The notes beneath the pieces are model-generated. The model worked only from the letters and a program-made list of their open reading frames with translations. It made no database searches and was not told where the DNA came from. Position numbers and translations under genes: made by a program. Shown piece after piece: positions 9,742 to 47,252 of a stretch of DNA of 49,578 nt. Source of the stretch: Desulfurococcaceae archaeon (GTDB lineage: Archaea > Thermoproteota > Thermoprotei_A > Sulfolobales > Desulfurococcaceae); contig JAJHQQ010000003.1 in the NCBI GenBank assembly GCA_020833245.1, positions 1-49,578 on the forward strand, in the 5' to 3' direction. Position 1 is the first letter of the stretch. Each line of letters begins with the position of its first letter.

Positions 9742-9788
9742 GTGATGAGGGATCCGAACACGGATGAGTGAAGAGAAATTAGTGCTGA
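9742..9788 (+). ncRNA. C/D box sRNA (2'-O-methylation guide)
   Basis: Boxes read C GTGATGA (9742-9748), a 12-nt guide GGGATCCGAACA, D' CGGA (9761-9764), a 3-nt spacer, C' GTGAAGA (9768-9774), a 10-nt guide GAAATTAGTG and D CTGA (9785-9788). Total 47 nt, in the normal archaeal range. The first guide has the canonical 12-nt spacing, the second is two shorter. It lies between divergent protein genes, in the same sense as the Cys-rich gene at 9872. Predicted targets are TGTTCGGATCCC and CACTAATTTC in rRNA or tRNA; I could not assign them from memory. The same box pattern recurs twice in the window. Confidence 0.75.
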
Positions 9789-23692: not shown

Positions 23693-23802
23693 CGCCGGGG
23701 GCGGGATTTGAACCCGCGCACCCCCCGCAGGGGGTAGTGGGTCTCTCTAGTTAACGCTGGAGTACTCGAGCCCACCCCCTTCGACCGCTCGGGCACCCCG
23801 GC
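23693..23802 (-). tRNA. tRNA-Ser (CGA anticodon) with a 22-nt intron
   Basis: Minus-strand class II tRNA, 110 nt, 88 nt after splicing. Acceptor GCCGGGG pairs with CCCCGGC, discriminator G. The anticodon stem GTGGG/CCCAC encloses CTCGAG, then an intron at plus-strand positions 23743-23764, then A; splicing after position 37 gives loop CTCGAGA and anticodon CGA (Ser). The variable arm CCCCC-TGC-GGGGG and the T arm GCGGG-TTCAAAT-CCCGC are perfect. Position 37/38 is the canonical archaeal intron site. The bulge-helix-bulge is short (about three clear pairs in the central helix), so the exact ends are inferred. Confidence 0.93.
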
Positions 23803-23877
23803 TCTAAACTATACTAATGGTATTTTCTTCTTATAACAGTTACCGTGTAGTTAATCTTCGTGGTCAATGCACTATAG

Positions 23878-23886
23878 TATTTTAAA
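23878..23886 (+). promoter_or_regulatory. TATA box for the C/D sRNA at 23911
   Basis: tattttaaa is centred at 23882; adding the usual 26 bases predicts transcription start at about 23908, three bases before the C box. No protein gene in this orientation lies downstream, so this promoter most likely serves the sRNA. Confidence 0.6.
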
Positions 23887-23910
23887 CCATGTGTTAATAG
23901 ATAATTATTA

Positions 23911-23975
23911 GTGATGAGCTTTCAGCGGTCGGATCTACTCCAAGTCATCACGGTGAAGAAATAGGCCGCGTCTGA
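23911..23975 (+). ncRNA. C/D box sRNA with a probable 23S rRNA guide
   Basis: C GTGATGA (23911-23917), 12-nt guide GCTTTCAGCGGT, D' CGGA (23930-23933), a 19-nt spacer, C' GTGAAGA (23953-23959), 12-nt guide AATAGGCCGCGT, D CTGA (23972-23975). Both guides have exactly 12 nt, the archaeal norm; the D'-C' spacer is longer than usual. The first guide is complementary to ACCGCTGAAAGC, which I recall as a conserved segment near the 3' end of archaeal 23S rRNA (compare GTGCTGAAAGC in E. coli). The N+5 rule would methylate the C before TGAAAGC. A TATA box is positioned for a start at the C box. The segment also contains an inverted GTGATGA/TCATCAC pair. Confidence 0.8.
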
Positions 23976-24257
23976 TGCTTAAGTAATATTGATACGAGTT
24001 ATCGCTATTTGAGAAGTGTAAACCCCTTAGGGGGGCGTTCTCCGAACAGACTAGTTGGTCTGGGTGCGGCTTAGTTATGATCATATAACTACACGAGATC
24101 AGAGTCTCAGAAAACTCTTCTAGTACTTCTAATAACCAGACCCTCGTAACCAGGGGACTCTTCACGAGTTATAACTCAGAGGGTAGTCTCCCGACGGCGC
24201 TTCATCGGGCCTACTGCTTTATCAAGTCTGAGTGCTTAAAATACTTTAAGTAGTGTA
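23976..24257. other. Gene-free region with many potential RNA stems, unassigned
   Basis: No convincing protein gene in either strand; a 76-codon minus-strand frame has no family features. Potential stems in plus coordinates: 24047-24051 with 24058-24062 (CAGAC/GTCTG); 24072-24078 with 24085-24091 (TAGTTAT/ATAACTA, 6-nt loop); 24101-24105 with 24114-24118; 24057-24063 with 24136-24142 (GGTCTGG/CCAGACC, enclosing the previous two); 24141-24144 with 24152-24155; a perfect 12-bp palindrome 24166-24177; and 24190-24194 with 24205-24209 inside 24183-24186 with 24211-24214. A minus-strand TATA-like tattttaag near 24240 could start a transcript near 24214. I looked for RNase P, SRP and 5S RNA core motifs and did not find them. 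Confidence 0.4.
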
Positions 24258-47203: not shown

Positions 47204-47252
47204 GTGATGAGTTTGCCGAAAGCGGATCTGTGACGAGTCTCCCGATGGCTGA
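47204..47252 (+). ncRNA. C/D box sRNA (2'-O-methylation guide)
   Basis: C GTGATGA (47204-47210), 12-nt guide GTTTGCCGAAAG, D' CGGA (47223-47226), 3-nt spacer, C' GTGACGA (47230-47236), 12-nt guide GTCTCCCGATGG, D CTGA (47249-47252). Both guides have exactly 12 nt and the total is 49 nt, the classic archaeal double-guide layout. A TATA-like ttttat at 47164-47169 predicts a start about ten bases before the C box. The D box ends five bases before the furthest start of the HAD gene. Predicted targets CTTTCGGCAAAC and CCATCGGGAGAC; not identified from memory. Confidence 0.82.

Follow-up and report, generated by a model that had tools for sequence, protein, structure and literature searches.

A very probable C/D box sRNA gene beside a serine-type tRNA gene

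The window, meaning the whole 49,578-nucleotide stretch of Desulfurococcaceae DNA analyzed here, contains at 23911-23975 on the forward strand an element with the box and guide layout of an archaeal C/D box sRNA, divergent from an intron-containing tRNA gene. The features of this locus are as follows.

23693-23802 (-), serine-type tRNA gene with an intron, divergent (Rfam tRNA, 43.6 bits; type read from sequence)
23880-23886 (+), TATA-like TTTTAAA, putative promoter element (read from sequence)
23911-23975 (+), whole predicted C/D box sRNA gene, in the order C, guide, D', spacer, C', guide, D
23911-23917 (+), box C, GTGATGA, its TGATGA the same in all seven aligned orthologs
23918-23929 (+), D' guide GCTTTCAGCGGT, 12 nt, pairing 12/12 with 23S ACCGCUGAAAGC; predicted Cm
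23930-23933 (+), box D', CGGA, a variant of CTGA with the tandem GA kept in the ortholog alignment
23934-23952 (+), D'-C' spacer, 19 nt, in the K-loop position
23945-23951 (+), TCATCAC, complementary to box C, inside the D'-C' spacer
23953-23959 (+), box C', GTGAAGA, likewise GTGAAGA in G001, G002, and G005
23960-23971 (+), D guide AATAGGCCGCGT, 12 nt, with a GGCCGC core conserved in the ortholog alignment
23972-23975 (+), box D, CTGA, invariant among orthologs

The first-pass annotation of this DNA had described these boxes, the two 12-nt guides, and a 19-nt spacer containing TCATCAC, and each of them was found in its place. It had also described a TATA box centered 29 bases before the C box; the TATA-like TTTTAAA is present, but its center lies 28 bases upstream. 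Upstream AT-rich TATA-like motifs occur in several congeners too, for example CTCTTTATAA in G001 and G003. Some archaeal C/D genes, about 20%, are known to have a TATA-like motif of their own (PMC7994747), and this gene would join that minority. The flanks allow only about two terminal base pairs, with no strong terminal stem in the sequence. A search of the window with Rfam returned only tRNAs and no match to a C/D family. A relaxed C/D' C'/D pattern matched twice in the real window (23911-23975 and 9742-9788) and never in 40 Markov shuffles. Short words common to the sRNA and the tRNA gene were judged to be due to chance.

Conservation and synteny

BLAST with a 151-base query retrieved related stretches in congeners, and orthologs with both guides and all four boxes are present in 6 of the 7 (G001, G002, G003, G004, G005, and G007); none was found in G006, a genome that is 76% complete. 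The serine-type tRNA gene adjoins the sRNA in all six of these congeners, as identified by blastn. Across the family, the string TGATGANCTTTCAGCGR, which spans the C box and the first guide, has exactly one exact match in each of 20 of the 40 family genomes, compared with none in the same 40 genomes for a reversed-pattern control. At class level, 29 of the 229 genomes contain a related string, again with 0 for the reversed control.

Across the orthologs the boxes and guides are maintained while the flanks and spacer drift, which is the signature expected of a guide RNA. Within box D' the second base may be T, A, C, or G, and the GA is invariant. A mechanical 76-aa minus-strand ORF overlaps the element, as might be expected if the resemblance to a C/D box sRNA were fortuitous or if this were a piece of coding or tRNA-related sequence and no gene at all. 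The restriction of conservation to boxes and guides, the syntenic position, and the zero control matches make such an explanation barely credible.

The D' guide and its predicted target in 23S rRNA

The window's own genome is 78% complete, and a search for its 16S and 23S found neither; the pairing of the D' guide was established on the 23S of congeners rather than on the organism's own. The first-pass annotation had matched the first guide to a conserved segment near the 3' end of archaeal 23S rRNA. That segment is real: the guide complement ACCGCTGAAAGC is present and identical in the 23S of the congeners, where it pairs 12/12 in the N+5 register. With the guides of the congeners themselves, pairing to 23S is likewise 12/12 for G004, and there are 11 contiguous pairs for G005 and G007.

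We scored each genome's own guide against all 16S and 23S positions. The ACCGCUGAAAGC site ranks first over all rRNA positions, at 28.8 versus 27.9 for the second, G-U-containing site, and 150 column-shuffled guide sets gave no score as high as that of the D' target. The possible second 23S site for the D' guide, GCCGCTGAAGGC, can be paired with no mismatch but needs G-U pairs, and we took it to be secondary because the guide always has T where GCCGCTGAAGGC would favor C. Under the N+5 rule for the modified residue (PMC4644070), methylation is predicted at the C that immediately precedes UGAAAGC and corresponds in alignment to E. coli 23S C2745.

Orthologs, synteny, and a perfect, top-scoring N+5 match in the congeners' 23S together support a C/D sRNA whose D' guide addresses the 3' region of 23S. 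On this evidence, 23911-23975 is very probably a free-standing gene for an archaeal C/D box sRNA, with its D' guide directed to a 23S cytidine.

Candidate targets of the D guide

The first-pass annotation had suggested aligning the guides to the organism's 16S, 23S, and tRNAs. The D' guide has its perfect match on the congeners' 23S; for the D guide the target is ambiguous. The D guide probably targets another 23S site. Its best candidate there (candidate A) is the segment ACGCGGCCUCUG (GCGCGGCC), which follows shortly after the sarcin-ricin loop and precedes the D' target by 64 nt; at ACGCGGCCUCUG, the window's D guide forms 9 contiguous pairs with the 23S of G007. A close second (candidate B) is CCGCGGCUUAGA. 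The best score was equaled by 6 of 150 shuffled guide sets, and comparison of the D guide with 16S and the genome's own tRNAs gave nothing superior to the 23S candidates. In G004, a G to A change in the D guide is accompanied by a compensating C to U change in 23S at candidate A. The evidence thus leans toward candidate A, but we do not count this change as proof, since it is a single event and the altered guide fits candidate B too.

Variation in box D' and the D'-C' spacer

Box D' and the spacer both vary within the genus. In G001, G003, G004, and G007 the box is CTGA and the spacer only 3-4 nt long, G005 has CAGA with 8 nt, G002 has CAGA with 19 nt, and the window genome has CGGA with 19 nt. 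The two 19-nt spacers differ in sequence, and TCATCAC occurs in that of the window genome only. Both genomes also share AATAGG at the start of the D guide, which suggests that the two probably owe their longer spacer to common inheritance.

If CGGA and the long spacer weakened the C'/D' motif, the D' half could be decaying, with the D guide mainly or solely in use. Such a loss would fit the contrast between the CGGA or CAGA boxes with 19-nt spacers in the window genome and G002 and the CTGA boxes with spacers of a few nucleotides in G001, G003, G004, and G007. The D' guide is nevertheless intact, with its 12/12 pairing to 23S, and the GA of the box does not vary. In addition, the window contains 3 copies of GTGATGA-N12-CGGA versus 0.01 expected, so that CGGA looks like a normal D' box here, and its presence at D' in two further C/D-like genes of the window argues that it works. 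We therefore regard decay of the D' half as unlikely.

The presence of TCATCAC had led to the proposal that the RNA might form a hairpin rather than two K-turns. Box C would then pair with the spacer and be sequestered, giving a regulated or non-methylating RNA. The complementarity is complete (7/7), and when the spacer is shuffled by composition TCATCAC arises 0.4% of the time, although a 7-mer complement of any kind between the spacer and the remainder appears in 2.7% of shuffles. Against the hairpin, TCATCAC is found in no ortholog, including that of G002 with its equally long spacer. The minimum free energy is no better than that of shuffled sequences (z 0.70), and the mean pairing probability between box C and its complement, about 0.3 at 37 C, is less than 0.2 at 60-85 C. 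The hairpin proposal fails on these comparisons, and we consider such a fold very improbable.

The long spacer appears to be a harmless variant, a K-loop that has been enlarged in this lineage and has no proven function. Folding gives no stable stem within the spacer, and most congeners have a short one. That the 19-nt spacer instead marks a C'/D' module with altered function, in which an enlarged K-loop affects how L7Ae binds or how far apart the two half-RNPs lie, seems to us distinctly unlikely.

Predicted function and relation to known C/D RNAs

Fibrillarin is encoded in the window's genome and in every congener. A Nop5-like ORF, read from sequence, lies directly upstream of the fibrillarin gene, and the genome contains two genes of the L7Ae family. 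From transcription through RNP assembly and methylation to the choice of a D target, the pathway proposed here is a prediction from sequence. L7Ae would bind both the C/D K-turn and the C'/D' K-loop of the sRNA, and the bound RNA would recruit Nop5-fibrillarin and present its two 12-nt guides. The D' guide would pair with ACCGCUGAAAGC in 23S, where fibrillarin would 2'-O-methylate the C opposite guide base five, counted upstream from box D'. The D guide, which is also under selection, perhaps pairs just after the sarcin-ricin loop, in which case the sRNA may bridge two nearby 23S sites.

Judged by the published box consensus for archaeal C/D box sRNAs (PMC4644070; PMC7994747), the gene resembles this class in its boxes C (RTGATGA) and D (CTGA) and internal D' and C', in guides of 12 nt each (10-12 nt in the class) with a 23S target at N+5, in its intergenic position near a tRNA gene, and in the presence of Nop5, fibrillarin, and L7Ae genes in the genome. 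It differs in having CGGA as D' and a D'-C' spacer of 19 nt rather than a few.

The same 23S guide occupies the D' half in the genus of the window and the D half, with different partners, in other genera. Genus g5 is an example of the latter, with GGATGA...AAACCGTCAGTG...CTGA...ATGATGA-CCTTTCAGCGGC-CTGA. In family f2 it occupies the D' half, and its partner there is different again. Re-pairing of guide modules between sRNA genes, by guide mobilization or circular rearrangement, has already been described (PMC4644070), and the 23S guide seen here is an additional example with no difference in kind. The gene belongs to a well-known family and leaves the understanding of C/D box RNAs unchanged. 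It adds a previously unannotated, predicted rRNA-methylation guide to a little-studied archaeal genus, and it offers a small but clear illustration of how guide modules evolve, in which one 23S guide is kept across genera while box context, partner, spacer, and even strand change.

Other small RNA-like elements

Two probable C/D box sRNAs lie elsewhere on the forward strand of the window, at 9742-9788 (GTGATGA GGGATCCGAACA CGGA TGA GTGAAGA GAAATTAGTG CTGA) and at 47204-47252 (GTGATGA GTTTGCCGAAAG CGGA TCT GTGACGA GTCTCCCGATGG CTGA).

A second conserved small RNA-like element, CCCGATGAAGCGCCGTCGGGAGACTACCC...GTGAAGAGTCCCCTGGTTACGAGGG, is found close by the sRNA at 24138-24212 on the reverse strand. 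It has C/D-like motifs, but its first interval is about 21 nt long, and this long interval gave no clear rRNA target. A single copy of its core, CCGTYGGGAGACTACCC, is present in each of 7 genomes from the genus and 2 from genus g10, with 0 control matches; in genus g10, a tRNA-like GTGCCGGGGTGC follows the core. Among congeners, the sRNA and this second element switch strand relative to the adjoining tRNA gene (window 23693-24212 and loci L057-L063). The two are convergent in the window, G005, and G007 and on the same strand in G001, G003, and G004, while in G002 both are on the tRNA strand. This switching suggests repeated micro-inversion at the sRNA locus.

In other genera (L086-L091, L093, and L094), a second, opposite-strand C/D-like RNA is convergent with the 23S guide RNA and only a few bases away from it. 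Its guide, GGATCAACCGG, is complementary to CCGGTTGATCC, which we take to be the start of archaeal 16S.
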